Below, in pieces: positions 2,852 through 56,777 of a stretch of DNA of 64,000 nucleotides. Source of the DNA: Margaritifera margaritifera (lineage: Eukaryota; Mollusca; Bivalvia; Unionida; Margaritiferidae). The stretch is taken from assembly GCA_029931535.1 (NCBI GenBank), contig JAQPZY010001128.1, positions 1,084,501 to 1,148,500 on the forward strand, read 5' to 3'. A program made the position numbers and the translations under genes. Positions within the stretch are counted from its first letter, which is position 1. Every line of letters begins with the position of its first letter. The notes under the pieces were generated by a model. That model ran no database searches and was not told the origin of the DNA. It worked only from the letters and a program-made list of their open reading frames with translations.

Positions 2852-2860
2852 AGTAGTATG

Positions 2861-2868
2861 TATAAAAG
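2861..2868 (+). promoter_or_regulatory. terminal TATA box, left end
   Basis: TATAAAAG begins nine bases inside the element terminus and is followed by a GC-richer stretch, as in a core promoter. It points inward toward the small ORF at 2932 and the HTH gene at 3362. The same box is present at the other end. Promoter activity is inferred. Confidence 0.5.
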
Positions 2869-2931
2869 CGGGTTCTGGCTCATTTCCTCTCATTTTTGTC
2901 ATCATGATAGAACCTTTATCTTTATATTTTT

Positions 2932-3033
2932 ATGATCTTGATTGAGGCTGATAATCGTGGAAAGAATAATCGGGAAATCGGATGCTCTAATCAGCAATAC
3001 TTTGAACATTTAATCGAGAGAGATAAGCCTTAG
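2932..3033 (+). CDS. small ORF of 33 residues, left arm
   Basis: The first ATG of any length after the terminal TATA box opens a 33-residue reading frame (starts MILIEADNRGKNNREIG, ends at TAG). It is kept open in both arms. It is polar and charged with no recognised motif. It could be a real peptide, an upstream ORF controlling the HTH gene, or chance. The 328 bp between it and the HTH gene are AT-rich with no further long ORF. Confidence 0.3.
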   Translation: MILIEADNRGKNNREIGCSNQQYFEHLIERDKP

Positions 3034-3361
3034 ATCAAAATGTTTTATGACCCTTAAACAGCTCGATAGAAGATCTAAAAACACTTCGATTATTGTAAAA
3101 TGAAGATAGAGCGGCTATTATGGTAAATTACAGCTTCTATTAATTTGAGTCAGAAAATAATTTTTCCTGAAATTTTTTAAGAAAAGTTTGATCATGATGA
3201 AAAAGAGTGAAAAACCATGAAAAAGGCTTAGGCGAAAGAAGATTGAAATGGGAGCATTACTTGGCAAAATAAAGCTTATTGATAATACTTAAATTTTATA
3301 AGATTTTTGATTTTGACAATATTATTAAAAATTTTCAAAAGTTTTCAAGATTAATATAATA

Positions 3362-3826
3362 ATGCCCGTGAAAAAGACAGAACTGTCAAATGAGGATATT
3401 GATTTTATTATCGCGAACAAGGGTAAATTATCTGTAAAAGAGTTAACATCGCGGTTCAAGATTGGAACAGCACCTTTGTATAAGCTTTGGGGCGGAAAAC
3501 AAAATAATATTGTTAATAGTGCTGATGAGCAAAAAGAGCAGGTTGAGTACACTAAAAAGGTTAATAAGGCTCTTGATAAACATTGGCCAGTTGATATTGC
3601 GGGCAATGATAATCAAAAGATCAAGAAGGACGTCAAACACTTACAGAAAACAATTACCCGATTAAAAGAAGATAATGACAAAATCAAAAGCCAATCAAAA
3701 CAATATCAGATATTGGCTGAAACAAGTCAGGAAAGAGCGAAGTTGTTGAATACGAAGGTGAATCTGATGAGAGCGTTTTATAACCACCCGCAAAGTGAAG
3801 TAACGATCAAAGATATTCAGGTATGA
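3362..3826 (+). CDS. helix-turn-helix / coiled-coil protein, left arm (154 aa)
   Basis: ATG in a normal context opens 154 residues. Residues ~7-43 (ELSNEDIDFIIANKGKLSVK and on to YKLWGG) have the spacing of a homeodomain-like helix-turn-helix: helix, KLSVKEL turn region, then a recognition helix ending in LYKLW. Residues ~58-140 are rich in K, E and Q with heptad spacing (KHLQKTITRLKEDNDKIK) and probably form a coiled coil for dimerisation. The gene converges on pPolB, its stop lying 3 bp from the polymerase stop (3826 versus 3830), a virus-like compactness. Likely role, inferred: binding to element DNA, for example the ends or the 46-bp arrays. The ORF is intact. Specific family not identified. 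Confidence 0.7.
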   Translation: MPVKKTELSNEDIDFIIANKGKLSVKELTSRFKIGTAPLYKLWGGKQNNIVNSADEQKEQVEYTKKVNKALDKHWPVDIAGNDNQKIKKDVKHLQKTITRLKEDNDKIKSQSKQYQILAETSQERAKLLNTKVNLMRAFYNHPQSEVTIKDIQV

Positions 3827-3829
3827 TTA

Positions 3830-6800
3830 TTATTCATTGTTTATCAAGATAGATCTTGACGTTGATGTTATCGTGGATTTGATTAGAATAGCGTAATGGC
3901 CATGTGCTGGTGTGTTTATTCCATCTTCGCAGTACCTTTTGTCATCGAAGTTGTTTAGACCTTTCTTATGCACCTCAATGAGTATGACTTCCTGTTTGTA
4001 GGACCGAATACCGCAATTGATTACTGTTTTTACATTCTCTTCTGGAAGTCTAAACAGTGCTTCTCTGTAGTTATTCAGTTTCAGATTGTTTCTGACGTAA
4101 CATTCTTGGATTCCTTTCGCCTTATTTTTTTCCTTACCATCGTCGGTCTGAACCGCGTACATCTTCGATCTTAGACCAACAAATTCAGTAATGGGGACCA
4201 TATTAAACTCTTCTTTCATCTTGCCAATTACTTTCTTGTTTGTGGCATCGAAAAATGGACTATCTTTTGATACATCAGATAAGTCAAACTCATCTTTATT
4301 ATCGTATATCTCCTGGAACGCATCTTCTGAATCAACTTCGTATAATAGCGAATCAGTATCCGTTAGAAGCAGTTTTGCAGAGGGCCATTGTTTTTTTACA
4401 AAAGTGTAGTGAAAATTGTATATCAACCACTTAGACAGATCAAGCACTGAAGCTCCAACATAGATTGGTTTGTTAAGTTCAAGATTAGTTTGTTTTCGTT
4501 TTATCAACACGAGATTTTCGTTGATTCTGATCAGACCATCAAAAGTATTAGATGCGACTTGTTTGCGACATTGTTGTTTGTTTGTGACAATTTTTATTGT
4601 AATTCGATTACGGATGTTCTCCATTGTCTTGCCGAACACAGAATTATTCATCAACTTATAATAGTCCTGTTCGAACTTGGTAATAGCTAATGTTCTTCGT
4701 TGAGTATTGGAATTGATATAATCAGCCATCCAAGTGCTATGTTTAAATTTTAGAACACAAATAACTTTCTCGACAATTAAGCCTGCGTCAACTGCCTGTT
4801 TAAGACTTTTATAGTGGCAGATATAATTCTTTTTATCGCAGAGATTCGGCACCAGTTTTGCAAATTTACATGGGTTGGATTCGCGCAATAATCGCTGGTT
4901 ATCTGAGAGGAATGAATCTGGAATAACCTTCTTTTCTGCGAGGTACGGATAGTCATTGTGATAGTCGTGAACATCTTTTGGGTAAATAATATCAGATTCA
5001 ACATAATACGAATATTTTTCATGCATCTCCTCGGTAATGTTCTTTGTTTCCTCTAGAAATTGCTTTGGCGTGATCCACTCGAAACCGCCGTATGGCATCG
5101 GCTGAGACATAGCATAATCGTAAAGGTTATGTGTATCAAAATAAAGTAGAAACTTAGATTGTTTTGTTGGATCATACTCTTTCATATATTTGTTATTTGC
5201 AACAGAATGTTTCTTGCTGATTACACTGATTCCACCTCGAATAGCATGTTCCATAAACAAGTACATGTCAACATCCCGCAGTAATTCAAGCTCGATTTTA
5301 CTGTTTTAGCAGAGCATCAAATGACATGTTTGGAGCAGAGTAATACCAAAATGGATCCAGCTTGTAGCTGTCAAGCCCCATCAAACGAAATTTCTCAAAA
5401 ATGTCGGCGAGCAACAGTGTATCAGTTTTCAAGTACAGATCATGATAATCAGCAAATGTTTTACAGTCGAAGTCATTCCAGACTTTTACTGCGTGTTCGT
5501 ATTCGTTATTTGTAATATCTTTATCGTTTAACAGTGAATGAAATTGACTTGGTGATGGCAGGGCTGTTTCAGAGAAGCGATTGTATCCATCTTAATAGTC
5601 ATACGGAAACTCACCTTTTATCTTCATCAGATCTGATTTTGAACCAAATTCGCGATCGATATTTTCAAATGTGCTACAAGATTTTGCTAGAACGTGGAGT
5701 GGACTGTTCATAAACTGATAGCTATCGATGAATCTTAGTTTGTTGTATGTAATCGACATAAAACGTTCTGTATTTGTTGGTATAGCCCCGAAAGTTGATT
5801 GTCTGCCATCTGGAAGATACAGTATGCTGCGATATCAGGATGACCAAGTCTTTGAATTATGAAATGGCTGTCGTATCCTTTGAAATTATGCGCAATAACA
5901 GGAATGAATTTTGGTGGGATTAACTTGTCTTTGCATTCGACATGAACACAACCGAAGTAAACACCAGTAAAACTGTCAAAATGTTGAACACGATCTCCAA
6001 TTTTATCGAACTTTCTATCGCATGCGGCACAGCATTTCGCGTTTTTGAAATTATTTTCTTGAGTTATTGTCATTGGTTTTGGTTGGACATTGCGACTAAG
6101 TATCGTAGTAATACGGTCTGATTCCGCCAGTAAATGTTTAATAAGATTTACTTCAGGGGGCTCTGATTGATCATTTTCAACACGATATAATTTAAGTGGA
6201 CTTGAATAACGTGGATTAGTGCAAATGGTAATAGCACCATAAGAAGCAGCAACATGTTTTGTTTTTCGAATAGTTTTACAATTGCAGTCGGTCTCACATC
6301 CTTTTCTAGGGCATTTTTGTGTGCAAGGAACATTAAAACACTCAAAATCAAAATATATTACAAATGGAATTGTCTGTGTTCGTTCAACATGCTTAAATTT
6401 TTGTATTGAATTTGCTTTATTTGGCATTGAGGTCTTTTGTATCTGTTTACAGTATTTTCTGTGTTCGTTTAATCTCTGTTGGCACGAATAACTCTGAAGA
6501 CAGTTGTAACAGTAAAACGCCTTTGCATTATGATTCGAAGATGATGAAGAAGCAAATTGACTGAAATTTTTGATACAGACAAAATGTCCTTTGTGTAGCA
6601 GTATATTGATTGGATCGTTGCCCTCATTGAGTTTACTCGAGATTAAAAGCGGAAACGGGTTAAAAGAATCATTGATCGAGAACACATTGATTCCACCTGC
6701 CAATAGCTCTTCATTTTGGTTCTCAATCTTTTTGATCTGTGTTATCTTTGTCGGAAATTCAATTCCACTCAAATTTAGTTTGTCGACGTGAGGTAAATAA

Positions 6801-7745
6801 TTTGATAATCGTTCTGCATTTTTTTTAACTGGAAATAACGCTGACAATAGTGCCCATCTGAGACATTCATTATCAGTATTTTTAACGTTAATACAAGCTT
6901 TTCTATCTGCAACTGCTTTTGGTAATTCTAAATAACTTCCAGCGCTAAGTGGATCAAGATGATGCACATGAACATAAATACATTTAACGGAATCAAGAAC
7001 CCACCCAGAACCTCCAGAAGTAAAAATGTCAAGAGCGGATGTAACACTCGAATAGATCTTGTCAGCGATTTCAGTTAGATCACTTCCCTTAAAAACCGAT
7101 TGAACTCTTGAGCGCAGAAAAGTATCTTGGAGCACAGATGCGTCTGTTGCCTTGTACATCAATACCTCAACGTGAACAGCAATCTTTACAGCACTTTTTT
7201 CCAAAAATTCTTTCGTCAAAATTATTCTCACAATTTTATCAATATCCTTTGCGTTTACCTCATCAACAATGATGTTCTTGAACGAGTACATTCTGTTGAA
7301 ACCCGCAAACGAAGATTCTTTGACGTTTTTTATTTCGGATATCTAACTGCTGTTGTTGACGAACTTCAATGATATTCTCTGCAAGTTTTTGTAATCCTTC
7401 ATTCGATCGCTTGTACCCTGGATCAATACCAGTTAACGTCTGATACTCTTTTCGGAGCTTATCAGCAGTTTGTGGTCGGGTTATTGATCTTCTCGCCGCG
7501 AGATCCTTGTGCTCCTCAATGAACCTCATTTGGTCCACCCGAGAGAATTTAGCCAAATTGAAAGTCTGACCAGTGATTTTATCGCCAGTGATCTTATCGC
7601 CAATTGCGCTAATCAACTTTTTGAGAGGTATTTTAGCATCAGGATATTTCTCAAATATTTCTGTGTACAACAGTCGTACTCGATCAGGGACATCTAATCC
7701 GAGCATACGATTTACTTCTTTGGTATTAGAATTTTTGTTTAACAT
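3830..7745 (-). pseudogene. protein-primed family B DNA polymerase, left arm, broken
   Basis: The pPolB (DNA_pol_B_2 type) copies linear DNA from a protein primer. N-terminal ORF 7263-7745, then 5735-7291 with a C2H2-like finger (FYCYNCLQSY...H..YC), Exo I (YFDFEC), a cysteine-rich endonuclease-VII-like insert and Exo II (HNFKGYDSHF). The C-terminal ORF 3830-5266 holds motif A (DTHNLYDYAM), motif B (NNSVFGKTMEN), motif C (TDTDS) and the KxY motif (RSKMYAV). All catalytic motifs are present. Breaks: a 1-nt insertion near 7340 and a 2-nt deletion near 5301 (private to this arm), a frameshift near 5820 and a stop at 5592-5594 (both shared with the right arm). A GDKIT duplication of 15 bp near 7580 is also private. 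Start is the ATG at 7745, which faces the zinc-ribbon gene. Confidence 0.9.
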
Positions 7746-7825
7746 TGTTATATAAATGTTTTATATTATTTTTCTAATTTGAATTCATTTTCAAATTAAA
7801 TTCATTTTATATATTTGTAATAGAT
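7746..7825. promoter_or_regulatory. divergent promoter region, left arm
   Basis: Eighty bp separate the start codons of pPolB (leftward) and the first zinc-ribbon gene (rightward). The stretch is nearly all A/T, holds TATA-like strings on both sides (TATATAAA-type and TTTATATA) and an inverted repeat AATTTGAATTCATTTTCAAATT-like centred near 7782. A bidirectional promoter with a binding site is the natural reading. Inference only. Confidence 0.4.
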
Positions 7826-8293
7826 ATGCCTCAAATCGGAAATAATCTGTGTGCTTGGTTTTGTGTAAATAAAAATAAAACGTGCAACAATCATTGTATA
7901 ACTCAATACTGCGGCACACACAGAAAATACGCTAAAAATCTATTTGTTAATGGTGAAAAACACAGAATAGCATGTGTTGGTTGTCAGAGGCGTGTAAGAA
8001 GTATTTATCCAATCTGTCGTTATTGTGGCGGAAACGATTACAAGAGCTTATTGTGGTATTACAAACAAAGGAGCCCAAAGTTAGGTGTTTTAAAACGAGA
8101 TCCTCCAACACCAGAATCATTTATTGCAGGCTATTTGAAACGGAAATTAACAGTACTAGAAGAACATTCATCATGCGAATCGCCGCCATCTACACCATCG
8201 CCACAACTGCCGCCATCATCTGCACCATCGCCGCCAACCAACAATTCGATCAACAGCCTATTAAATGGATCGCAGTTGATTAACATAGAATAA
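7826..8293 (+). CDS. zinc-ribbon protein 1, left arm (155 aa)
   Basis: Intact 155-codon ORF. Residues ~8-35 are Cys/His-rich (CAWFC, CNNHC, YCGTH) and could bind one zinc. Residues ~50-70 form a treble-clef or ribbon-like CVGC...CRYC pair followed by GGNDYKSLLWYY and a PPTPESFIAGYL segment. The last ~35 residues are a proline/serine-rich, low-complexity tail. The CxxC...CxxCG plus P-S/T-x-x-F module is shared with the proteins at 8340-8693 and 9622-9939, so the three are paralogues. It lies downstream of the divergent promoter and 46 bp before the next gene on the same strand. No known family recognised. Confidence 0.7.
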   Translation: MPQIGNNLCAWFCVNKNKTCNNHCITQYCGTHRKYAKNLFVNGEKHRIACVGCQRRVRSIYPICRYCGGNDYKSLLWYYKQRSPKLGVLKRDPPTPESFIAGYLKRKLTVLEEHSSCESPPSTPSPQLPPSSAPSPPTNNSINSLLNGSQLINIE

Positions 8294-8339
8294 GAATAAT
8301 ATTTTAAAATAAAAAAAATCAAACACAATTATATAGTTG

Positions 8340-8693
8340 ATGAAAACTAAAAATAATCGAAATAATCGATCACCGAATCAATCAAAGATTGATCACCATG
8401 ATCAACCACGGTTGATTGAAGATGGATCAACAACCAGCTCAAAAACATGTGAGGGATGCAATAGAACAACATATAATCCAATACCTCTTTGCGACAATTG
8501 CGGGTACAAACAATATTTTGAAATTCAGTTTTATCATTCGTATACTGCGCCACGATTAGGGTTAAATGGTATACTTGAAATGCCATCAATAAAAGATTTT
8601 CTGGAAATTGGATATGAACAACTAAGTAAAAATGCTTTTAACGCTTACAAAAATGAGCCTGCTGTCAGAAATATTATACTAGCTCAATCTTGA
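8340..8693 (+). CDS. zinc-ribbon protein 2, left arm (117 aa)
   Basis: Intact ORF; the first ATG is at 8340 (an upstream in-frame TTG was not used). The N-terminal ~35 residues are polar and low-complexity. Then KTCEGCNRTTYNPIPLCDNCG gives a four-cysteine zinc ribbon (CxxC...CxxC), followed by an aromatic YFEIQFYHSY strand and PSIKDFLEIGYEQLS, a probable amphipathic helix. The same layout occurs in the centre-only protein (9622-9939) and, more divergent, in zinc-ribbon protein 1. The stop codon abuts the 46-bp array. Function unknown; small zinc ribbons in such elements are often transcription or replication cofactors. Confidence 0.7.
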   Translation: MKTKNNRNNRSPNQSKIDHHDQPRLIEDGSTTSSKTCEGCNRTTYNPIPLCDNCGYKQYFEIQFYHSYTAPRLGLNGILEMPSIKDFLEIGYEQLSKNAFNAYKNEPAVRNIILAQS

Positions 8694-9243
8694 TTATTAT
8701 TAGCATCAAAATAGATCACTCAAAAACATGAAAATGTCATTATTATTAGCATCAAAATAGATCACTCAAAACATGAAAATGTCATTATTATTAGCATCAA
8801 AATAGATCACTCAAAAACATGAAAATGTCATTATTATTAGCATCAAAATAGATCACTCAAAAACATGAAAATGTCATTATTATTAGCATCAAAATAGATC
8901 ACTCAAAAACATGAAAATGACATTATTATTAGCATCAAAATAGATCACTCAAAAACATGAAAATGTCATTATTATTAGCATCAAAATAGATCACTCAAAA
9001 ACATGAAAATGTCATTATTATTAGCATCAAAATAGATCACTCAAAAACATGAAAATGTCATTATTATTAGCATCAAAATAGATCACTCAAAAACATGAAA
9101 ATGTCATTATTATTAGCATCAAAATAGATCACTCAAAAACATGAAAATGTCATTATTATTAGCATCAAAATAGATCACTCAAAAACATGAAAATGCCATT
9201 ATTATTAGCATCAAAATAGATCACTCAAAAACATGAAAATGTC
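8694..9243 (+). repeat. 46-bp tandem array, about 12 copies, left
   Basis: Direct repeats with unit GATCACTCAAAAACATGAAAATGTCATTATTATTAGCATCAAAATA in pieces of 45-46 bp, nearly identical and contiguous, so not a CRISPR array (no spacers). Starts right after the zinc-ribbon 2 stop and ends at the edge of the unique core. Mirror copy at 9996-10619. Confidence 0.95.
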
Positions 9244-9380
9244 AAGTACTTTCGATGAATTTTTTAAAAAGTGTGATATTTTTATTGCGTGAAATTTTTT
9301 GAAAACAAATTATTTGCGAAAAAAATTATCTCTGATTTTTTCGATCACAATTACAATGTTGGCGATAATGATCTCAATTT

Positions 9381-9550
9381 GATCAACTTTTTTCGGCGAG
9401 TGTGAGTAAGTCAACTTTCACGATCAACTTTCACGATCAACTTTTTTTGGCGAGTGTGAGTAAGTCAACTTTCACGATCAACTTTCACGATCAACTTTTT
9501 TCGGCGAGTGTGAGTAAGTCAACTTTCACGATCAACTTTTTTCGGCGATT
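9381..9550 (+). repeat. core repeat: GATCAACTTT... composite array
   Basis: A 41-bp unit (GATCAACTTTTTTCGGCGAG then TGTGAGTAAGTCAACTTTCAC) recurs three to four times, spaced by 13-bp GATCAACTTTCAC subunits. Found only in the unique core. The bases on its left (9244-9380) are A/T-rich and uncoding. Confidence 0.85.
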
Positions 9551-9621
9551 AAAAAAAATGTTTTATTGATGTTTTAGCGGTGAGTTTTCAATAATGTTTC
9601 AGTATAATCAATTGTTGACAA

Positions 9622-9939
9622 TTATTGAGCTTCTATTTCAATCTGATTGAAGAGATTATTTCCAATTGCTAAAAATGATTTAATTGATGGTGGTGGTACT
9701 GGAGAATGATTTAATTCTGGCAATGTGAATATATAAAAAAAACAAACCTCAAAATAATCATGATAACCACAATCATCGCATATTGCAAACGGATTCGCAG
9801 TTGTACACGAACAACCTTCACATGTTTTTGAATCTGTTGATAGCACATTAAGGTATTTTTCTGCAATTTCTGAATATTTTTGTCGTACTGTTTTTTCAGT
9901 GATTTTATCTTCGCCGATCATTAATGTTGTATTTCTCAT
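9622..9939 (-). CDS. zinc-ribbon protein 3, unique core (105 aa)
   Basis: The only protein gene outside the arms. Residues ~1-30 include a helical segment (KTVRQKYSEIAEKYLNVL); then SKTCEGCSCTTANPFAICDD with CG forms the four-cysteine ribbon, followed by YFEVCFFYIF and PPSIKSFLAIGNNLF. Alignment by eye with zinc-ribbon protein 2 is clear over the ribbon and the PSIK-F-IG tail, so it is a paralogue with a different N-terminus. Intact, single copy. As it is unique to the core it marks the palindrome junction. Function unknown. Confidence 0.7.
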   Translation of the reverse strand: MRNTTLMIGEDKITEKTVRQKYSEIAEKYLNVLSTDSKTCEGCSCTTANPFAICDDCGYHDYFEVCFFYIFTLPELNHSPVPPPSIKSFLAIGNNLFNQIEIEAQ

Positions 9940-9995
9940 ATTATACTATATTTTTTACTTTAAATTTATTAAAAATTATCGTTGGCGTAATCAAT

Positions 9996-10619
9996 TGTGA
10001 TCTATTTTGATGCTAATAATAATGACATTTTCATGTTTTTGAGTGATCTATTTTGATGCTAATAATAATGACATTTTCATGTTTTTGAGTGATCTATTTT
10101 GATGCTAATAATAATGACATTTTCATGTTTTTGAGTGATCTATTTTAATGCTAATAATAATGACATTTTCATGTTTCTGAGTGATCTATTTTAATGCTAA
10201 TAATAATGACATTTTCATGTTTTTGAGTGATCTATTTTGATGCTAATAATAATGACATTTTCATGTTTTTGAGTGATCTATTTTGATGCTAATAATAATG
10301 ACATTTTCATGTTTTTGAGTGATCTATTTTGATGTTAATAATAATGACATTTTCATGTTTTTGAGTGATCTATTTTGATGCTAATAATAATGACATTTTC
10401 ATGTTTTTGAGTGATCTATTTTGATGCTAATAATAATGTCATTTTCATGTTTTTGAGTGATCTATTTTGATGCTAATAATAATGACATTTTCATGTTTTT
10501 GAGTGATCTATTTTGATGCTAATAATAATGACATTTTCATGTTTTTGAGTGATCTATTTTGATGCTAATAATAATGACATTTTCATGTTTTGAGTGATCT
10601 ATTTTGATGCTAATAATAA
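9996..10619 (-). repeat. 46-bp tandem array, about 13.5 copies, right
   Basis: Reverse-complement counterpart of the left array with one to two more units and a few private substitutions (for example near 10147 and 10334). The homology between arms starts in this array. Confidence 0.95.
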
Positions 10620-10973
10620 TCAAGATTGAGCTAGTATAATATTTCTGACAGCAGGCTCATTTTTGTAAGCGTTAAAAGCATTTTTACTTAGTTGTTCATA
10701 TCCAATTTCCAGAAAATCTTTTATTGATGGCATTTCAAGTATACCATTTAACCCTAATCGTGGCGCAGTATACGAATGATAAAACTGAATTTCAAAATAT
10801 TGTTTGTACCCGCAATTGTCGCAAAGAGGTATTGGATTATATGTTGTTCTATTGCATCCCTCACATGTTTTTGAGCTGGTTGTTGATCCATCTTCAATCA
10901 ACCGTGGTTGATCATGGTGATCAATCTTTGATTGATTCGGTGATCGATTATTTCGATTATTTTTAGTTTTCAT
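10620..10973 (-). CDS. zinc-ribbon protein 2, right arm (117 aa)
   Basis: Same 117-residue protein as 8340-8693 with no amino acid change seen. ATG at 10973. Intact in both arms although the polymerase is not, which suggests either recent arm homogenisation or selection. Confidence 0.7.
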   Translation of the reverse strand: MKTKNNRNNRSPNQSKIDHHDQPRLIEDGSTTSSKTCEGCNRTTYNPIPLCDNCGYKQYFEIQFYHSYTAPRLGLNGILEMPSIKDFLEIGYEQLSKNAFNAYKNEPAVRNIILAQS

Positions 10974-11020
10974 CAACTATATAATTGTGTTTGATTTTTT
11001 TTATTTTTAAAATATTATTC

Positions 11021-11485
11021 TTATTCTATGTTAATCAACTGCGATCCATTTAATAGGCTGTTGATCGAATTGTTGGTTGGCGGCGATGGCGATGATGGCG
11101 GCAGTTGTGGCGATGGTGTAGATGGCAGCGATTCGCATGATGAATGTTCTTCTAGTACTGTTAATTTCCGTTTCAAATAGCCTGCAATAAATGATTCTGG
11201 TGTTGGAGGATCTCGTTTTAAAACACCTAACTTTGGGCTCCTTTGTTTGTAATACCACAATAAGCTCTTGTAATCGTTTCCGCCACAATAACGACAGATT
11301 GGATAAATACTTCTTACACGCCTCTGACAACCAACACATGCTATTCTGTGTTTTTCACCGTTAACAAATACATTTTTAGCGTATTTTCTGTGTGTGCCGC
11401 AGTATTGTGCTATGCAGTGATTGTTGCACGTTTTATTTTTATTTACACAGAACCAAGCACACAGATTATTTCCGATTTGTGGCAT
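11021..11485 (-). CDS. zinc-ribbon protein 1, right arm (154 aa)
   Basis: Right-arm copy of 7826-8293, intact and one residue shorter in the proline/serine tail (PSSPSPP instead of PSSAPSPP), with a few substitutions (T/A in HCIAQY, L/V in KNVFVNG, P/L in the tail). All cysteines and histidines of the zinc sites are kept. Transcribed leftward, away from pPolB. Confidence 0.7.
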   Translation of the reverse strand: MPQIGNNLCAWFCVNKNKTCNNHCIAQYCGTHRKYAKNVFVNGEKHRIACVGCQRRVRSIYPICRYCGGNDYKSLLWYYKQRSPKLGVLKRDPPTPESFIAGYLKRKLTVLEEHSSCESLPSTPSPQLPPSSPSPPTNNSINSLLNGSQLINIE

Positions 11486-11568
11486 ATCTATTACAAATAT
11501 ATAAAATGAATTTAATTTGAAAATGAATTCAAATTAGAAAAATAATATAAAACATATTTATATAACAA
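11486..11568. promoter_or_regulatory. divergent promoter region, right arm
   Basis: Mirror copy of 7746-7825, A/T-rich with the same inverted repeat, between zinc-ribbon 1 (leftward) and pPolB (rightward). Activity inferred. Confidence 0.4.
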
Positions 11569-14500
11569 ATGCAAAACAAAAATTCTAATACCACAGAAGT
11601 AAATCGTATGCTCGGATTAGATGTCCCTGATCGAGTACGACTGTTGTACATGGAAATATTTGAGAAATATCCTGATGCTAAAATACCTCTCAAAAAGTTG
11701 ATTAGCGCAATCGGCGATAAAATCACTGGTCAGACTTTCAATTTGGCTAAATTCTCTCGGGTGGACCAAATGAGGTTCATTGAGGAGCACAAGGATCTCG
11801 CGGCGAGAATATCAATAACCCGACCACAAACTGCTGATAAGCTCCGAAAAGAGTATCAGACGTTAACTGGTATTGATCCAGGGTACAAGCGATCGAATGA
11901 AGGATTACAAAAACTTGCTGAGAATATCATTGAAGTTCGTCAACAACAGCGGTTAGAATCCGAAATAAAAAACGTCAAAGAATCTTCGTTTGCGGGTTTC
12001 AACAGAATGTACTCGTTCAAGAACATTATTGTTGATGAGGTAAACGCAAAGGATATTGATAAAATTGTGAGAATAATTTTGACGAAAGAATTTTTGGAAA
12101 AAAGTGCTGTAAAGATTGCTGTTCACGTTGAGGTATTGATGTACAAGGCAACAGACGCATCTGTGCTCCAAGATACTTTTCTGCGCTCAAGAGTTCAATC
12201 GGTTTTTAAGGGAAGTGATCTAACTGAAATCGCTGACAAGATCTATTCGAGTGTTACATCCGCTCTTGACATTTTTACTTCTGGAGGTTCTGGGTGGGTT
12301 CTTGATTCCGTTAAACGTATTTATGTTCATGTGCATCATCTTGATCCACTTAGCGCTGGAAGTTATTTAGAATTGCCAAAAGCAGTTGCAGATAGAAAAG
12401 CTTGTATTAATGTTAAAAATAATGATAATGAATGTCTCAGATGGGCACTATTGTCAGCGTTATTTCCAGTTTAAAAAAATGCAGAACGATTATCAAATTA
12501 TTTACCTCACGTCGACAAACTAAATTTGAGTGGAATTGAATTTCCGACAAAGATAACACAGATCAAAAAGATTGAGAACCAAAATGAAGAGCTATTGGCA
12601 GGTGGAATCAATGTGTTCTCGATCAATGATTCTTTTAACCCATTTCCGCTTTTAATCTCGAGTAAACTCAATGAGGGCAACGATCCAATCAATATACTGC
12701 TACATAAAGGACATTTTGTCTGTATCAAAAATTTCAGTCGATTTGCTTCTTCATCATCTTCGAATCATAATGCAAAGGCGTTTTACTGTTACAACTGTCT
12801 TCAGAGTTATTCGTGCCAACAGAGATTAAACGAACACAGAAAATACTGTAAACAGATACAAAAGACCTCAATGCCAAATAAAGCAAATTCAATACAAAAA
12901 TTTAAGCATGTTGAACGAACACAGACAATTCCATTTGTAATATATTTCGATTTTGAGTGTTTTAATGTTCCTTGCACACAAAAATGCCCTAGAAAAGGAT
13001 GTGAGACCGACTGCAATTGTAAAACTATTCGAAAAACAAAACATGTTGCTGCTTCTTATGGTGCTATTACCATTTGCACTAATCCACGTTATTCAAGTCC
13101 ACTTAAATTATATCGTGTTGAAAATGATCAATCAGAGCCCCCTGAAGTAAATCTTATTAAACATTTACTGGCGGAATCAGACCGTATTACTACGATACTT
13201 AGTCGCAATGTCCAACCAAAACCAATGACAATAACTCAAGAAAATAATTTCAAAAACGCGAAATGCTGTGCCGCATGCGATAGAAAGTTCGATAAAATTG
13301 GAGATCGTGTTCAACATTTTGACAGTTTTACTGGTGTTTACTTCGGTTGTGTTCATGTCGAATGCAAAGACAAGTTAATCCCACCAAAATTCATTCCTGT
13401 TATTGCGCATAATTTCAAAGGATACGACAGCCATTTTATAATTCAAAGACTTGGTCATCCTGATATCGCAGCATACTGTATCTTCCAGATGGCAGACAAT
13501 CAACTTTCGGGGCTATACCAACAAATACAGAACGTTTTATGTCGATTACATACAACAAACTAAGATTCATCGATAGCTATCAGTTTATGAACAGTCCACT
13601 CCACGTTCTAGCAAAATCTTGTAGCACATTTGAAAATATCGATCGCGAATTTGGTTCAAAATCAGATCTGATGAAGATAAAAGGTGAGTTTCCGTATGAC
13701 TATTAAGATGGATACAATCGCTTCTCTGAAACAGCCCTGCCATCACCAAGTCAATTTCATTCACTGTTAAACGATAAAGATATTACAAATAACGAATACG
13801 AACACGCAGTAAAAGTCTGGAATGACTTCGACTGTAAAACATTTGCTGATTATCATGATCTGTACTTGAAAACTGATACACTGTTGCTCGCCGACATTTT
13901 TGAGAAATTTCGTTTGATGGGGCTTGACAGCTACAAGCTGGATCCATTTTGGTATTACTCTGCTCCAAACATGTCATTTGATGCTCTGCTAAAACAGAGT
14001 AAAATCGAGCTTGAATTACTGCGGGATGTTGACATGTACTTGTTTATGGAACATGCTATTCGAGGTGGAATCAGTGTAATCAGCAAGAAACATTCTGTTA
14101 CAAATAACAAATATATGAAAGAGTATGATCCAACAAAACAATCTAAGTTTCTACTTTATTTTGATACACATAACCTTTACGATTATGCTATGTCTCAGCC
14201 GATGCCATACGGCGGTTTCGAGTGGATCACGCCAAAGCAATTTCTAGAGGAAACAAAGAACATTACCGAGGAGATGCATGAAAAATATTCGTATTATGTT
14301 GAATCTGATATTATTTACCCAAAAGATGTTCACGACTATCACAATGACTATCCGTACCTCGCAGAAAAGAAGGTTATTCCAGATTCATTCCTCTCAGATA
14401 AACAGCGATTATTGCGCGAATCCAACACATGTAAATTTGCAAAACTGGTGCCGAATCTCTGCGATAAAAAGAATTATATCTGCCACTATAAAAGTCTTAA

Positions 14501-15471
14501 ACAGGCAGTTGACGCAGGCTTAATTGTCAAGAAAGTTATTCGTGTTCTAAAATTTAAACATAGCACTTGGATGGCTGATTATATCAATTCCAATACTCAA
14601 CGAAGAACATTAGCTATTACCAAGTTCGAACAGGACTATTATAAGTTGATGAATAATTCTGTGTTCGGCAAGACAATGGAGAACATCCGTAATCGAATTA
14701 CAATAAAAATTGTCACAAACAAACAACAATGTCGCAAACAAGTCGCATCTAATACTTTTGATGGTCTGATCAGAATCAACGAAAATCTCGTGTTGATAAA
14801 ACGAAAACAAACTAATCTTGAACTTAACAAACCAATCTATGTTGGAGCTTCAGTGCTTGATCTGTCTAAGTGGTTGATATACAATTTTCACTACACTTTT
14901 GTAAAAAAACAATGGCCCTCTGCAAAACTGCTTCTAACGGATACTGATTCGCTATTATACGAAGTTGATTCAGAAGATGCGTTCCAGGAGATATAAGATA
15001 ATAAAGATGAGTTTGACTTATCTGATGTATCAAAAGATAGTCCATTTTTCGATGTCACAAACAAGAAAGTAATTGGCAAGATGAAAGAAGAGTTTAATAT
15101 GGTCCCCATTACTGAATTTGTTGGTCTAAGATCGAAGATGTACGCGGTTCAGACCGACGATGGTAAGGAAAAAAATAAGGCGAAAGGAATCCAAGAATGT
15201 TACGTCAGAAACAATCTGAAACTGAATAACTACAGAGAAGTACTGTTTAGACTTCCAGAAGAGAATGTAAAAACAGTAATCAATTGCGGTATTCGGTCAT
15301 ACAAACAGGAAGTCGTACTCAATGAGGTGCATAAGAAAAGGTCTAAACAACTTCGATGACAAAAGGTACTGCGAAGATGGAATAAACACACCAGCACATG
15401 GCCATTACGCTATTCTAATCAAATCCACGATAACATCAACGTCAAGATCTATCTTGATAAACAATGAATAA
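11569..15471 (+). pseudogene. protein-primed family B DNA polymerase, right arm, broken
   Basis: About 1300 codons from the ATG at 11569 to the TAA at 15469-15471, similar in length to Polinton-type pPolB. Order: a ~300-residue N-terminal region, zinc finger near 12780-12850, Exo I at 12946-12960, cysteine-rich endonuclease-VII-like insert 13255-13375, Exo II 13407-13437, Exo III (YHDLYLKTDTLLLADIF) 13852-13902, motif A near 14160, motif B near 14650, motif C at 14937-14951, KxY near 15132. Private breaks: a stop at 12472-12474, a stop at 14994-14996 and a 1-nt insertion near 15340. Shared with the left arm: a frameshift near 13480 and a stop at 13704-13706. The N-terminal part (11569-12471) is open here where the left arm is not. 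Assigned to the protein-primed branch by motif style. A terminal-protein domain was not identified. Confidence 0.9.
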
Positions 15472-15474
15472 TAA

Positions 15475-15939
15475 TCATACCTGAATATCTTTGATCGTTA
15501 CTTCACTTTGCGGGTGGTTATAAAACGCTCTCATCAGATTCACCTTCGTATTCAACAACTTCGCTCTTTCCTGACTTGTTTCAACCAATATCTGATATTG
15601 TTTTGATTGGCTTTTGATTTTGTCATTATCTTCTTTTAATCGGGTAATTGTTTTCTGTAAGTGTTTGACGTCCTTCTTGATCTTTTGATTATCATTGCCC
15701 GCAATATCAACTGGCCAATGTTTATCAAGAGCCTTATTAACCTTTTTAGTGTACTCAACCTGCTCTTTTTGCTCATCAGCACTATTAACAATATTATTTT
15801 GTTTTCCGCCCCAAAGCTTATACAAATGTGCTGTTCCAATCTTGAACCGCGATGTTAACTCTTTTACAGATAATTTACCCTTGTTCGCGATAATAAAATC
15901 AATATCCTCATTTGACAGTTCTGTCTTTTTCACGGGCAT
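15475..15939 (-). CDS. helix-turn-helix / coiled-coil protein, right arm (154 aa)
   Basis: Right-arm copy of 3362-3826, intact, with two residue changes seen (P/H before LYKLW; A/V near YQIL). Its stop is 3 bp from the pPolB stop at 15471. Confidence 0.7.
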   Translation of the reverse strand: MPVKKTELSNEDIDFIIANKGKLSVKELTSRFKIGTAHLYKLWGGKQNNIVNSADEQKEQVEYTKKVNKALDKHWPVDIAGNDNQKIKKDVKHLQKTITRLKEDNDKIKSQSKQYQILVETSQERAKLLNTKVNLMRAFYNHPQSEVTIKDIQV

Positions 15940-16279
15940 TATTATATTAATCTTGAAAACTTTTGAAAATTTTTAATAATATTGTCAAAATCAAAAATCT
16001 TATAAAATCAAATATAAAATTTAAGTATTATCAATAAGCTTTATTTTGCCAAGTAATGCTCCCATTTCAATCTTCTTTCGCCTAAGCCTTTTTCATGGTT
16101 TTTCACTCTTTTTCATCATGATCAAACTTTTCTTAAAAAATTTCAGGAAAAATTATTTTCTGACTCAAATTAATAGAAGCTGTAATTTACCATAATAGCC
16201 GCTCTATCTTCATTTTACAATAATCGAAGTGTTTTTAGATCTTCTATCGAGCTGTTTAAGGGTCATAAAACATTTTGAT

Positions 16280-16381
16280 CTAAGGCTTATCTCTCTCGAT
16301 TAAATGTTCAAAGTATTGCTGATTAGAGCATCCGATTTCCCGATTATTCTTTCCACGATTATCAGCCTCAATCAAGATCAT
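16280..16381 (-). CDS. small ORF of 33 residues, right arm
   Basis: Mirror copy of 2932-3033, also open. See that entry for its unknown role. Confidence 0.3.
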   Translation of the reverse strand: MILIEADNRGKNNREIGCSNQQYFEHLIERDKP

Positions 16382-16444
16382 AAAAATATAAAGATAAAGG
16401 TTCTATCATGATGACAAAAATGAGAGGAAATGAGCCAGATCCCG

Positions 16445-16452
16445 CTTTTATA
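16445..16452 (-). promoter_or_regulatory. terminal TATA box, right end
   Basis: TATAAAAG on the minus strand, nine bases inside the right terminus, pointing inward. Confidence 0.5.
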
Positions 16453-16461
16453 CATACTACT

Positions 16462-16466
16462 CTAGG
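16462..16466. repeat. target site duplication, right (CTAGG)
   Basis: Matches 2847-2851. Immediately followed by the rest of the interrupted MITE (TCTATGCAG). Confidence 0.85.
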
Positions 16467-18085: not shown

Positions 18086-18306
18086 TACCGTATATACTTG
18101 CATATAAGCCGATACCAACTGCAAACTGCATAGACCCAGATCTGCCATCGCATAATGCGCCAACAGATCTGGGTCTATGCAGTTTGTAAGGACTAATCAG
18201 TAGAACAAACAACATAGACCCTGACCTGCCAGCGCATTATGCAACGGCAGATCAGGGTCTATGTTGTTTGCATTTGGACCCGGATCATACACTAGTATGT
18301 ACGGTT
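18086..18306 (+). mobile_element. double-hairpin MITE, copy 2 (complete)
   Basis: TACCGTATATACTTGC...GTATGTACGGT ends. Two hairpins: stem 1 GACCCAGATCTGCC/GGCAGATCTGGGTC-like with CTGCATAG arms, stem 2 CATAGACCCTGACCTGCC with ACAACATAG arms, joined by ACTAATCAGTAGAACAAAC. No ORF. TA at the ends would fit a TA target. Confidence 0.85.
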
Positions 18307-18567
18307 TATTGAAACTTATAGCTGGCTGTGCCCAAAATATGTTTTGGTGTACAATCCTACATACTGGTAGTACTGAATGACATAATTACAGGATATAAGA
18401 TATACTGAACTCAAGGCCAAATTTGGACTCTAGGAGGACATCAAGACATGAAGCAGTGTGATTCTAAACATTTCTGAAAGATAACAAATTAATGATGGTA
18501 TTTCATATCAACTTCCTAAAATACACAGAGCTGATGGACTCTGATTCTCTACATTCATAATAAATGT

Positions 18568-18772
18568 ACTATCTATGCTCGCTTATAAGTCGATTCCAAC
18601 TGCAAACTGCACAGATCCGATCTGCTGCTGCATAGTGGGTCTATGCAATTTGTCAGGGGTAATCAGTAGAACAAATAACAAAAGCCCTGATCTGCCTGCG
18701 CATTATAAGACAGCAGATCAGAGTCCATGTTGTTTGTAATTGGATTTGACTTATGAGCAAGTATTAACGGTA
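18568..18772 (+). mobile_element. double-hairpin MITE, copy 3 (diverged)
   Basis: Same layout with many substitutions and a shortened first hairpin. Confidence 0.8.
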
Positions 18773-18822
18773 TACAAGCCATTTGGCTCATCAGCCCTTG
18801 GTATCAGAGGATGAATATCAAA

Positions 18823-19044
18823 TACCGTATATACTCACTTGTAAGTTGAGTCCAACTGCAAAACTGCACAGACCCAGATCTGCCATCACATAATGCACTG
18901 GCAGATCTGGGTCTATGCGATTTGTTATGAGTAATCAGTAAAACAAAATATACAGACCCTGATCTGCAAGTGCATTATGTGACAGCAGATCAGGGTCAAT
19001 GTTGTTTGCAGTTGCACTCAATTTATAGGCAAATATATATGGTA
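18823..19044 (+). mobile_element. double-hairpin MITE, copy 4
   Basis: Complete copy with TACCGTATATACTCAC start and both hairpins. Confidence 0.85.
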
Positions 19045-21504: not shown

Positions 21505-21902
21505 TACAGTGAAACCTCTCAAGACCAATATCCCATGGGACCAAGTAAAAGTTTTCAGTTTTGAGGTGTTTTCTGTTTATTGAGGTTTTCAAATTGTACC
21601 TAAAATGAGATACAATCAGTTATGTCACCTAATGTCCACTTCATGTTTTATTAATATATTAATCTTGTTTCTGTTGACATTTATCCTTTAAGTGTTTACA
21701 CTAATTTAGTTTCAACACATGCATTTTTGCCTTTATATAAATTTACATGATTTGATAAAATGCTACTGTCTAGTAAATATGAGAGAACATTGTTGCAAAA
21801 TTGTACTTTTGTTGGTCAAAAGTGTGGGCATGAGCCTTATTTCAAGTTCAAAAGCCAGTTAATGGAGGATTATTTAGGTGTATTATATCAGACAGATAAA
21901 CA

Positions 21903-22124
21903 TACCTGTATATACTCATGCATAATCCGGATCCAAATGCTAACAATATAGACCCTGATCTGCCGTTCAGTAATGCGCTGGCAGATCAGGGTCTATGTTG
22001 TTTGTTCTACTGATTAGTCCTTTCCAACTGCATAGACCCAGATCTGCCGGCACATTATTCGATGACAGATCTGGGTATATGCAGTTTGCAGTTGGTATCG
22101 GCCTATACGCGAGTATAGATGGTA
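21903..22124 (-). mobile_element. double-hairpin MITE, copy 5 (complete, reversed)
   Basis: Reverse orientation: the CATAGACCCTGATCTGCC stem comes first. Nested in 21507-22789. Confidence 0.85.
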
Positions 22125-22347
22125 ATCTCCTTTGCTTTCCACATCAGATGGCACTAAATCCTAAAGAATTAACCCTGAAAGAGTTGACTTCAGCAATAAG
22201 TAAATATTACTGCTTAGCCTGTTGTTAACAATGGTGAAAATCTGTCCTTTTGTTAATACTTGCTGTAATTTGTGCCAATGAGAGATGTGGTCTTTGTTAA
22301 GCATGGTGGTCCCAGGCTATTTTCTGACCTTTGGCTGACCTCATAAC

Positions 22348-22567
22348 TACCGTATATACTCGCGTATAATTAGATACCAACTGCAAACTGCAAAGACCCA
22401 AATCTGCCGTCGCATAATGCGCCAGCAGATCTGGGTGTATGCAGTTTGTAAGGACTAATCAGTAGAACAAACAACACAGACCCTGATCTGTCAGAGCTTT
22501 ATACGATGGCAGATCAGGGTCTATGTTGTTTGCACTTGGACCCGGCTTATATGCGAGTATAGACAAT
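22348..22567 (+). mobile_element. double-hairpin MITE, copy 6 (complete)
   Basis: TACCGTATATACTCGCGTATAA start, both hairpins, GCGAGTATAGACAATA end. Also nested in 21507-22789. Confidence 0.85.
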
Positions 22568-35108: not shown

Positions 35109-35384
35109 CATCATTAAACCATCTCTGATATTTCTGAAGAACTCCAACATACTGTACCAAATTCAATAACTAAATAATTTCTTACATGTTCAAGTTAACA
35201 TAATCACAAAATACATGTACCTGTTAAGTATAGAACAAAATTCTTTGTTATGGCATTTGACCTTGAAATTGATATCATGGCTAGAAGATAACTGAACTTG
35301 TCTCAGACAATGTTAAGATATGCCCATATGCTAAGTTTGGTTAAATCTATAATTATTATATTTTTAGAAAAGTTATTGAACTGG

Positions 35385-35805
35385 TATTATTCCGATATAT
35401 CCCCAAACAGGCATTATTTAAGGTATTCTTCTGATATATCCCCAAACAGGCATTATTTAAGGTATTATTCCAATATATCCCCAAACAGGCATTATTTAAG
35501 GTATTTTTCCGATATATCCCCAAACAGGCATTATTTAAGGTATTCTTCCGATATATCCACAAACAGGCATTATTTAAGGTATTCTTCCGATATATCCCCA
35601 AACAGGCATTATTTAAGGTATTCTTCCGATATATCCCCAAACAGACATTATTTAAGGTATTCTTCCGATATATCCCCAAACAAGCATTATTTAAGGTATT
35701 CTTCCGATATATCCACAAACAGGCATTATTTAAGGTATTCTTCCGATATATCCACAAACAGGCATTATTTAAGGTATTCTTCCGATATATCCACAAACAG
35801 GCTTT
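35385..35805. repeat. 39-bp minisatellite, about 11 copies
   Basis: Unit GATATATCCCCAAACAGGCATTATTTAAGGTATTCTTCC, in pieces; 39 is a multiple of three, so both strands stay open and give spurious ORFs of 169 and 146 codons. Confidence 0.95.
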
Positions 35806-36084
35806 GATAAAAAAAATCTATTCATACTTGTTTATATTATCACACTGAGAAGACAGTACAGCTAGAGTCCTTAGTCTTTTGACCTGAAAATAAATGTCAG
35901 AGTGCTATCATCTTACTTATTGGAATGCAACTAAATGTCAAAAGTCACTTGTATATCAGAGACGGTCCTTGGATCCCAAATTTGGAATAAGTCACTTCTC
36001 CATCCAAGCAGAACAGGAAGAAGTAAGATGTCCACAAGGGAGTCTTTATACATTTTATGATGATACCAAAGCGATATAATTTAT

Positions 36085-45690: not shown

Positions 45691-45716
45691 TTGTTAACAA
45701 ATAAAATGACACGAAG

Positions 45717-46965
45717 TTGAACATTTTCAGACCCAAGACACAAATCCTGATATTGATATTACTGAGCGAGAGGGAAGATATTGTTATCAAACCAGTGGAC
45801 AAGGGATCATGCGTTGCTGTCGTGAATGCGTTTGACTACATCACTGAGGCGAACAGACAACTTTCAGACGAGAGATTTTACAACAAACTCAAGCATGACC
45901 CATCAGCTGAACACGCTGAAATCGTATGTCAGACATTAAAAGACAGGCATACCGCGGGTCATATTGATGACAAAACACGACTTACCTCCTACCAGTTGAT
46001 CCCAAACCAGGAAGATTTTATTTACTCCCTAAAATACACAAAGAAGTGAACCCGGGGAGACCAATCAGTTCCGGAAACAACCATCCCACTAACAAAATTT
46101 CTGAACTCGTTGATTATCACCTTAGGCCTTTCGTGTAAAAACTGCCTTCATTTGTCCAAGATACAACGGTCTATCTAAACAAAACACCGAAAACTAACCA
46201 TCCAGATAACACTCTCCTCATTACTATGGACGTCAGTTCCTTATACACCAACATCGCACACGAAGAAGGTATCACAGCTTGCAAGGAAGCATGGGACAGT
46301 CGATCTGATCCTTCCCCACCTACATACTATTTGGTCAAACTCTTAACACGTGTTCTTAAGTTTAACAATTTTGTATTTGACAACCAACGCTTCCTACAAA
46401 TTAATGGAACTGCCATGGGCACTAAAATGGCACCTTCGTATGCCAGTGTTTTTATGGGAAGACTCCAGCAAAAACTCCTCAACGAGGCACCCTATAGACT
46501 TCTAAGCTGGTGCAGATTTATTGACGACATCGAATCAAAATGGATCGAAACGGGCGACAATTTCAAAATATTTCTTGAATTCGCCAATAACTTCCATCCT
46601 ACGATTCATCAAACAGGTCCAACATCTATTTGGATACTCAATCTACCCTCCTGGAGGGAAACATAGAAACTGACCTGTATTATAAACAAACTGACTCTTA
46701 CCAGTATCTACTCCCAACCAGCTGCCAACCCCAGTACGTAATTAAAAATCTTCTTTAAGGTATGTGCGTTAGGCCCAACATATATGCTCTAATCCGGCTA
46801 CCTTTGAAAAGAGACTCAGAGAGCTCAAGGGTCACCTTAGAAGGAGAAGATACAGAAAAAGCTACATCGAGGAGGCTATTAACAAAACTAGACTCCTCGA
46901 TAGAGGAACCCTCCTGAAATATAAAACCAACAAACACGTTAGTGCACATTTCTAACGGATTTAAA
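45717..46965 (+). pseudogene. Penelope-like reverse transcriptase relic
   Basis: Two main open segments. 45717-46049 has IVIKPVDKGSCVAVVNAFDY and RQLSDERFYNKL, typical of the RT N-terminus in Penelope-like elements. 46226-46666 has [36 protein letters not shown] and the catalytic FIDDI motif. Beyond that the frame changes; downstream segments to 46965 still resemble the RT thumb (KRLRELKGHLRRRRY, LLKYKTNKHVSAHF). Frame breaks near 46050-46200 and 46650-46760, plus a gap just after FIDD, show it is dead. No GIY-YIG endonuclease is visible. Confidence 0.75.
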
Positions 46966-55021: not shown

Positions 55022-55600
55022 TCAATGATATTTCACAACACTGCTGCAGAATATGAAAAAAGATGTTTTGTACAGAGTCGTTTTGAATTGAGGCGAATGA
55101 AGATTAGAATACGAAATAGTAGGCAGATTGTGTGAATGTATATTGGAAGCTGGAGTTAGGAGATCATTGATATATTGTGGAGCCATGTAATGAAACGATT
55201 TATATGTCAAAATAGCTTTAAACTACTTTGCTTTATAATTAAAAGACAACCACTGTAAATTAACGAATAAATGAGAGGGTGGATAGTCTTTTCTTGTAAT
55301 AATTCTACTCGCTTGTTTTTGGAGTTTAATTATCTGATTAAGAGTAGTAGCATTGCAATTCCCCCTTATAGTGCAACCATAATCAAACAAAGGTAATATA
55401 TATCCATTATAAAACATTTGTAGCATAGATTCTGACATATACGAAGACAATCTGTTCAATAAGGCTATTCTGGAGGATATTGCAGAACACATGTGCATTA
55501 TTTGAATTTCCCATTATAAATGCCTGTCGATAATAACACTTAAAAGTTTTTATATTTTCTGTGTTATTTAATTTAGTTCTCTGAACAAATAACAAATATA
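55022..55600 (-). pseudogene. LINE ORF2, C-terminal part
   Basis: Fragments with RIALLNRLSSYMSESMLQMF, LPLFDYGC and QKQASRIITRKDYPPS follow the RT in this type of LINE (thumb and connection). Frame changes near 55215 and 55495. Confidence 0.7.
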
Positions 55601-55673
55601 TTGATATCCTCTAATTTCTTTACTCTTTGCCTTGATGCAATTGTCACACAGTTATTTTTTTTTCTTTCTGTGT

Positions 55674-56330
55674 TTAATTCCATTTTTTTTTTAAAAAATT
55701 TTTGTTTGTTTTGCACCACTGTATAACAGCATCAACGTCGCGTTGTAAAGTTTGCTCAAGAGAAGGGATTGAATCACTCATGGCATGTAAGCTTGTGTCA
55801 TCCGCAAAAAGATCAGTTTCAGTGGCATGTATATGAAGAGTTAAATCATTAATGAAAAGGAGAAAGAGCAAAGGGCCAAGATTACAGCGTTGATGGACTC
55901 CACTTTTGACGTATTGTAAAGAAGATGTAGCATTGGCCACAGAAACACACTGTTGCCTTCCTGTTAGGTAAGAATCAAACCAAGCAAGCGAATTATCACT
56001 GATTTTGTGTGCCATGAGTTTTTCATCAATATTTCATGATCTATTAATATCAAACGCTCTTATAAAATCTAAATAAATTGCTCCAATTATTTTTCCGTCA
56101 TCTATAGCTGCTAGCCATGTATCAACCAACTTTTTGAGGGCTGTTTGGCATGAATTATTTTCTCTGAAACCTGATTGGGAGTTATGTAGAAGATTATATT
56201 TCTTTACAAATCGAACATGATGAAAGGCGATGTGTTTTTCAAACATTTTAGATATGGTTGGTAAAATTGATATAGATCGATAATTGTTTGCTGACAATCT
56301 ATCACCTTCTTTAATGACTGCGAACACTTT
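55674..56330 (-). pseudogene. LINE ORF2, reverse transcriptase
   Basis: 56034-56327: YRSISILPTISKMFEKHIA and SQSGFRENNSCQTAL; 55674-56015: WFDSYLTGRQQCVSV, GVHQRCNLGPLLFLLFINDL and the catalytic FADDTSL. A stop and a frame change near 56016-56040 separate the two. Confidence 0.85.
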
Positions 56331-56777
56331 GGCTAATTTTATATAGCTGGAAAGATTCCCGTATCAATACTTGTATTTATCAAGCTATCAATTGAAGGGG
56401 CAGCAACTTGAGTTGATAGTTTGGGTATTTTTGGTGAGATTTCATCTAGTCCTGTTGTTTTGTTGCCATCGAGTTTCTCTAACAATATCTATAACACCTT
56501 GAATACATATGCAAGGGATCTGGAATGATATATGAGATGGGACTTTCGACTCCACAAAATCTATAAGGAGTGAAAAATCTTGTGATGTGAAAGAATGTTC
56601 TCCAAGTATCGAAGTTAATGATGTAACAATGGTATTTAGGTCATTTGCAATATCTAATGGCTCTGTTCTTGTATGACTACCGGTTTTTAATTCTGAAGGG
56701 AAAAACTTTAGAACTTGAATTAAAGTTACAAAATTCTTCCATATTTTTCTGCAGTCATTTTAATTCTCAATTAATCT

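Follow-up and report, generated by a model that had tools for sequence, protein, structure and literature searches.

We analysed a 64,000-nt window of the Margaritifera margaritifera assembly GCA_029931535.1, in which positions 2852–16461 are occupied by a palindromic element of 13,610 bp. The element begins with AGTAGTATG at 2852 and finishes with CATACTACT at 16461, and both ends are abutted on the outside by CTAGG (2847–2851 and 16462–16466), a 5-bp target-site duplication. The left arm (2852–9244, plus strand) and the right arm (9997–16461, minus strand), each ~6.4 kb long, are inverted copies of each other and could be aligned over 6422 columns with 98.58% identity, 50 mismatches and 14 gap openings. 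The insertion target was a dispersed hairpin repeat. The joined flanks are 88–90% identical to uninterrupted copies of this repeat at 18086–18212, 22348–22474 and 21998–22126, which represent the empty site. The same repeat forms clusters at 18086–18947, 21900–22561 and 62004–62150, in both orientations, and judged by eye the clusters include more than a single sequence type.

Each arm carries, from its end inward, open reading frame (ORF) a, a DNA polymerase of the protein-primed-type family B, ORF c, ORF d and a 46-bp tandem array, with ORF a directed inward and the polymerase directed outward. In the left arm, ORF a (3362–3826, plus strand, 154 amino acids) shows by eye a helix-turn-helix-like start and a coiled coil. 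The polymerase region (3830–7745, minus strand) is divided by frame breaks into a C-terminal ORF (3830–5266), a 518-amino-acid ORF (5735–7291) and an N-terminal ORF (7263–7745). ORF c (7826–8293, plus strand, 155 amino acids) is Cys-rich and zinc-ribbon-like by eye, ORF d (8340–8693, plus strand, 117 amino acids) is also Cys-rich, and the array of 12.0 units (8693–9244) forms the inner end of the arm. The right arm mirrors this arrangement, with an array of 13.6 units (9997–10620), ORF d (10620–10973, minus strand), ORF c (11021–11485, minus strand, 154 amino acids), the polymerase (11569–15470, plus strand, its end placed by mirroring the left copy) and ORF a (15475–15939, minus strand, 154 amino acids). 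Both polymerase copies have broken frames; some breaks lie at a common place and others are private to one arm. A single-copy core of 752 bp (~9245–9996) separates the arms and contains ORF e (9622–9939, minus strand, 105 amino acids), which is Cys-rich and ORF d-like by eye.

When 8000 candidates were scored against the C-terminal polymerase ORF, 5103 qualified as homologues at E ≤ 0.001. Aligned with 13 of these homologues, the window ORF showed 42–53% identity and kept the LLxTDTDS motif, which is motif C of family B polymerases. Pfam scans of six homologues matched PF03175 in three of them (44–45% identity to the window ORF; E 7e-16 to 1.5e-20) and Endonuclease VII (PF02945) in four. Among the element's own ORFs, none attained a curated Pfam cut-off, including that of PF03175; the 19 ORFs scanned gave no integrase, capsid, ATPase or protease family, and no cut-and-paste transposase, for example of the P or Mutator type, appeared above cut-off. 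Alignment searches with ORFs a and c, though not d and e, returned no homologue at E ≤ 0.001. ORF a was open along its full length in the five other copies aligned with it. Its weak Pfam matches (DUF6262, DUF4618, a superantigen-like family and, for one ORF a, HTH_Tnp_IS630 with E 0.048) were all below cut-off and were not used as evidence.

We then searched the whole assembly (2.45 Gb, 1696 contigs) for relatives. The outer 449 bp of the window element found 17 matches, consisting of eight inverted pairs, the window's included, and one single match, and all eight pairs proved to be palindromes. The other copies showed 71–86% identity to the query, partly over short stretches. Within each of these other copies, however, the main arm blocks were 98.7–99.9% identical, compared to 98.6% in the window. 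The array-bearing inner parts of the arms were less alike (93–95% in C527, 92.7% in C886, 96.3% in C231 and 85.8% in C1157). The 46-bp unit of the window showed no similarity to those of other copies (21–24 of 46 positions matching, with a shuffled mean of 22.6), although the period was alike; arrays in L007, L011, L039 and L041 also had a 46-bp period, with a sequence unrelated to the window unit.

A search with the polymerase gave 89 scored matches out of 16,362 candidates, so that all counts are lower bounds. At least 28 of the scored matches, at 17 loci, belong to this family (≥73% identity), and 22 of the 28 form 11 inverted pairs at 11 loci, always with the minus strand first. By contrast, none of the 61 matches in a class of 49–53% identity (the ~50% class) was in an inverted pair; Fisher's test gave p ~1e-15 for the difference, computed on non-independent matches. 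One relative of the ~50% class (L047) had no inverted repeat in the 8 kb read except a dinucleotide run, and an ORF for an HNH endonuclease adjoins its polymerase. Polymerases of such kind look very abundant in the assembly, judging from the 16,362 first-look candidates, and several members of the ~50% class have long open frames.

Three of the polymerase pairs (C1206, C114 and C1525) were additional palindromes with exact 5-bp duplications and arms 71–76% identical to the window arm, and C898, which had only one match in the polymerase search, is nevertheless palindromic by its ends. All 11 two-ended copies fetched were palindromic, namely the window copy (C465), C527, C886, C1157, C641, C501, C231, C898, C1206, C114 and C1525; C1101, an inverted polymerase pair, and C284 and C797, both single matches, were left out of this set. 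The flanks differ among copies. The inverted arms are 2.0–8.0 kb long, and the longer copies carry the gene set in their arms. In the eight copies for which it was computed, the palindromic share was 51–98%, and C527, C886 and C1525 are palindromic nearly throughout. Ten further palindromes with unlike flanks and their own duplications make chance or assembly error very unlikely as the source of the window palindrome. Together with the arm alignment and the duplication, they confirm the preliminary description, made from the window alone, of a 13.6-kb mirror-image insertion with its genes present twice. The search for further copies that it proposed for the same genome suggests that the form is a lasting trait of a transposon family and not an accident.

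The sequence AGTAGTAT was found at the ends of all 11 copies, with one end of C501 short by one base. The flanking duplications were CTAGG, GGGAC, ATGCC, ACAAC, GGTAC, ACGCC, CATGT, ACTCA, GTCCT, GGGGG and TTGCC/TTGGC. They are exact 5-bp matches in 10 of the 11 copies, of which C501 has merely poly-G and is uninformative, and C641 matches at four of five positions (TTGCC/TTGGC). No full match was obtained at offsets of 3, 4, 6, 7 or 8 in the seven informative copies tested. A 5-bp stagger, not a 6-bp one, is therefore a trait of the family. The element ends show the (AGT)2 motif of Polinton/Maverick elements, but the copies do not match the 6-bp duplication size of that group. The polymerase and the AGTAGT ends indicate that the element is Maverick-related. 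The family consists of Maverick-related transposons with a protein-primed-type polymerase, in the form of an inverted dimer (arm, axis and mirror arm), which inserted as one piece with a 5-bp duplication.

Comparison of the centres showed that C527 and C886 have in common a central loop of ~50 nt, in which 42 of 47 aligned positions agree, together with the stem that flanks it. In C1157 a homologous axis segment lies beside an insertion; its loop is alike at 21–23 of 34 positions, and its stem segment is alike at 105 and 106 of 129 positions compared to C886 and C527, where ~30% would be expected by chance and the next 100 columns reach 46–61%. Between C1157 and these two copies, the synonymous sites of the C-terminal polymerase are saturated and the synonymous divergence (dS) of the N-terminal part is 1.8–2.0. 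The window copy keeps one half of the axis: the first ~60 positions match (48–53 of 60–62) and those beyond do not (32–34 of 65). A blastn search with the C886 axis segment likewise detected it in C527, C1157 and C465. Since these four copies, some with saturated synonymous divergence, have the axis in common, the alignments support an ancestral axis that is homologous and apparently constrained in the copies keeping it. The single-strand fold predicted for the centre of C527 (z −22) was given no weight, as every palindrome yields such a fold.

This comparison also changes the view of the window core, described beforehand as unique. It is single-copy here, but the better reading is that it forms the innermost part of the right arm and that the left arm has lost its counterpart. 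ORF e, single in the window copy, occurs in both arms of C527 (L007:4957–5283), on the opposite side of the tandem array.

Some copies are shortened. C1525 is a palindrome of 5593 bp with its axis inside the polymerase; its arms stop within tens of bases of each other and leave a loop of ~50 nt. Fold-back copying would be expected to leave arms that stop this close together, whereas a random deletion would seldom do so. In C501, too, the two sides are almost symmetric, up to a 118-nt centre. Three other copies showed a single arm and no second end in the stretches read. In C1229 the arm breaks off within the 46-bp array, and no matching duplication lies close to that point; C90 retains the polymerase and ORFs c and d, then a short tandem repeat, beyond which the 3.6 kb read show no arm match; and in C1214 the DNA match to the arm stops at about mid-polymerase, with nothing upstream of that point matching in the 3.2 kb read. 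The axis segment had no blastn match in C1229 and C90. We take these three as broken copies; C284 and C797, which lie outside the stretches read, may be complete single-armed copies. A genome with single-armed, two-ended copies and no other palindrome, the outcome that the preliminary description had set against its own proposal, has not been encountered so far.

Selection on the polymerase was examined in pairs of nine copies, using ~350 C-terminal codons and up to 867 N-terminal codons. For the C-terminal part, dS was 0.32–3.03 in 26 of 36 pairs, with a ratio of non-synonymous to synonymous divergence (dN/dS) of 0.02–0.07, and the other 10 pairs were saturated; for the N-terminal part, dN/dS was 0.05–0.14. 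These ratios indicate purifying selection on the polymerase between copies. The lowest C-terminal dN values were 0.008 (C886–C1229), 0.014 (C1157–C641) and 0.018 (C527–C501), which bounds the unselected time on those branch pairs to about 1–2%; the bound is looser for the window copy, whose lowest value was 0.037. N-terminal dN was above C-terminal dN (0.060 for C886–C1229), which we ascribe to weaker constraint. Within copies, by contrast, the arms differed by ~7.7 synonymous and 28.3 non-synonymous changes in 12 of 14 rows, as expected in the absence of selection. The two rows left out, the N-terminal rows of C465 and C231, were misaligned across frame breaks, and adding them gave 43.8 and 98.3 changes, respectively. 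Purifying selection between copies and neutral-like differences within them indicate that the insertions are young relative to the family and that the arms were alike at insertion or soon after.

The family resembles several known systems in part. With Polinton/Maverick elements, including Polinton-like viruses, it has in common a protein-primed-type family B polymerase, which in several relatives carries an insert resembling endonuclease VII, as well as a short target duplication and inverted repeats at the ends, where the (AGT)2 motif is found. However, the gene set here lies inside the inverted repeat, the duplication is 5 bp instead of 6 bp, no integrase, capsid or ATPase was detected, and ORFs a and c have no database relatives. 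Intact vertebrate Mavericks have inverted repeats of 46–1447 bp, 6-bp duplications and (AGT)2 among their end motifs (PMC8097293). Long inverted repeats that contain internal tandem repeats and dominate the element, as they do here in the share computed above, are characteristic of the Foldback/Galileo type of Drosophila. Galileo repeats reach ~1.26 kb in D. mojavensis and the copies with the longest repeats are without a transposase ORF (PMC3573991), whereas the arms here are several kb long and gene-bearing, with the polymerase included. Teratorn, a fish herpesvirus-piggyBac element of 41–182 kb with a piggyBac-type transposase and 18-bp terminal inverted repeats, is not protein-primed and is not described as a whole palindrome in the source consulted. 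Bidnaviruses have a protein-primed polymerase of Polinton origin and terminal inverted repeats (PMC4061559), features that the present family matches, but they are viruses with capsid and helicase genes and have inverted repeats at the ends only. In a partial coverage of the literature without preprints, the term "palindromic transposon" occurred in none of the papers searched, and no title or abstract opening listed dealt with a whole-element palindrome with a protein-primed polymerase.

Self-complementary or hairpin-ended genomes occur in other settings, such as poxvirus telomeres, the self-complementary forms of parvoviruses and the palindromic ribosomal DNA of ciliates, but to our knowledge none of them is an integrating protein-primed transposon. 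By analogy with them, the palindromic axis here could act as a replicated hairpin and the arms as the two strands of one duplex. From the polymerase type and the end repeats, replication would be protein-primed and start at the AGTAGT ends. The single strand displaced in this way, being self-complementary, could fold into a hairpin one arm long with the axis as its loop, and copying from the open end round the loop would regenerate the full palindrome. Since the two arms would then be the two strands of one duplex, every round would make them alike, and folding back too early would give a shortened palindrome with a new axis. Integration presumably involves a DDE-type integrase acting in trans, because none was found in the element. 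TDD-4 and TDD-5 use a Gypsy-like integrase and produce 5-bp duplications (PMC2836005), which makes that broad integrase class a plausible partner in trans. Conversion between the arms after insertion probably adds to their homogeneity.

We regard this scheme, in which a protein-primed element replicates via a self-complementary hairpin that keeps its arms alike, as the best explanation of the whole, with about equal weight for and against its being right. The stricter proposal of a self-complementary transposon, an obligatory inverted dimer with protein-primed hairpin replication, a conserved terminal loop and arms that cannot drift while the element is active, is more tentative. Several observations weigh against the scheme. 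The axis segment was absent by blastn from 7 of the 11 two-ended copies (C641, C501, C231, C898, C1206, C114 and C1525); the centres of these copies are shortened, except in C641, where the centre is a tandem array. The shortened copies C1206, C114, C898 and C231 are asymmetric, like products of ordinary deletion. Neither a terminal protein nor an integrase was identified in the element, and both priming and integration are inferred. The other adverse observations suit the main rival, and a serious one, in which the family derives from Mavericks and simply has terminal inverted repeats of extreme length. The palindrome would then have arisen once and be carried passively, and chromosomal gene conversion would keep its arms alike. 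Such conversion between arms is known from the palindromes of sex chromosomes. The same polymerase frame break occurs in both arms of four of seven copies (C465, C231, C1157 and C641), and equal non-zero stop tallies were found in 5 of 11 arm pairs (one pair had none in either arm and five were unequal; these are tallies, not positions); conversion explains both at least as simply. The shared breaks imply that, after function was lost, either the arms were still being homogenised or broken copies were still being mobilised in trans. The crowding of arm differences in the outermost 1 kb of C1157 and C641 also suits conversion. The window copy has the reverse trend, with differences lying inward, and a gradient of homogenisation from the ends was dropped because the copies disagree in this way. 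What passive conversion leaves unexplained is the retention of the form across saturated synonymous divergence, the constraint on a non-coding axis segment in the copies keeping it and the nearly symmetric new axis of C1525. We consider it a real contender, although on balance doubtful.

The remaining explanations fit less of the evidence. Each palindrome could have been made afresh at insertion, as a recurrent by-product of dimerisation of a single-armed element; the differing places of the axis in the shortened C501 and C1525, the one-armed copies or remnants C1229 and C90 and the single matches C284 and C797 would agree with this. However, a homologous axis common to C527, C886 and C1157, with half of it kept in C465, speaks against this, and C1229 ends in the axis-proximal array and C1214 in the polymerase, with no second end in the stretches read, so we judge recurrent dimerisation improbable. 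An ordinary Polinton/Maverick or Polinton-like virus whose inverted repeats had become enlarged would account for the polymerase homology and the (AGT)2 ends. A search of the viral contigs of IMG/VR with the single polymerase sequence found no relative, and an alignment query found one, the Polinton-like contig L045, which has ORFs for an rve integrase (PF00665), an ATPase-like protein (PF04665) and a capsid-like protein (PF16903, below cut-off) and which, over the 13.6 of its 17.4 kb examined, lacks inverted repeats of ≥60 bp. In tblastn, its integrase, capsid-like and ATPase-like ORFs matched 0 of 20 subjects (the window element, 18 pieces of its relatives and one control of the ~50% class, with L011 and L014 left out), and its polymerase as control matched all 20; each gene was represented by one distant query, the integrase had no positive control, and minor capsid and protease had no queries of their own. 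These results, the 5-bp duplications and gene-bearing arms of 2.0–8.0 kb, compared to the 46–1447 bp of intact vertebrate Mavericks, make an ordinary Polinton very unlikely. Palindromes are a known artefact of some libraries, and collapsed or fold-back chimeric reads might in principle mimic the element, but 11 copies with unlike flanks and their own 5-bp duplications, and the existence of an empty-site relative of the window flank, leave such an artefact scarcely credible.

Returning to hairpin replication, the preliminary description had offered two alternatives, an element type of its own, propagating as an inverted dimer, and a replication by-product that integrated. The first is supported at the level of the family, in that the form is common to diverged members and the axis is homologous in four copies. 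The second is not supported as an incidental one-off event, but the hairpin or template-switch mechanism that it invoked is the one favoured here for making and keeping the form, and this mechanism is inferred. Long palindromes are usually regarded as unstable accidents. That a whole-element palindrome has lasted while synonymous sites became saturated implies a use for the form. The family links the Maverick polymerase lineage with possible hairpin replication, and its many natural copies in one genome make replicative homogenisation and chromosomal gene conversion separable there. If true, a self-complementary transposon would represent a genome organisation new to eukaryotic transposons.

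Elsewhere in the window, a tandem repeat at 35292–35848 is open in three frames and codes for a repeated YIPKQALFKVFFR-like peptide, which is probably incidental. In addition, retroelement fragments with ORFs that are reverse-transcriptase-like by eye were found at 45705–46666 and 55223–57438.

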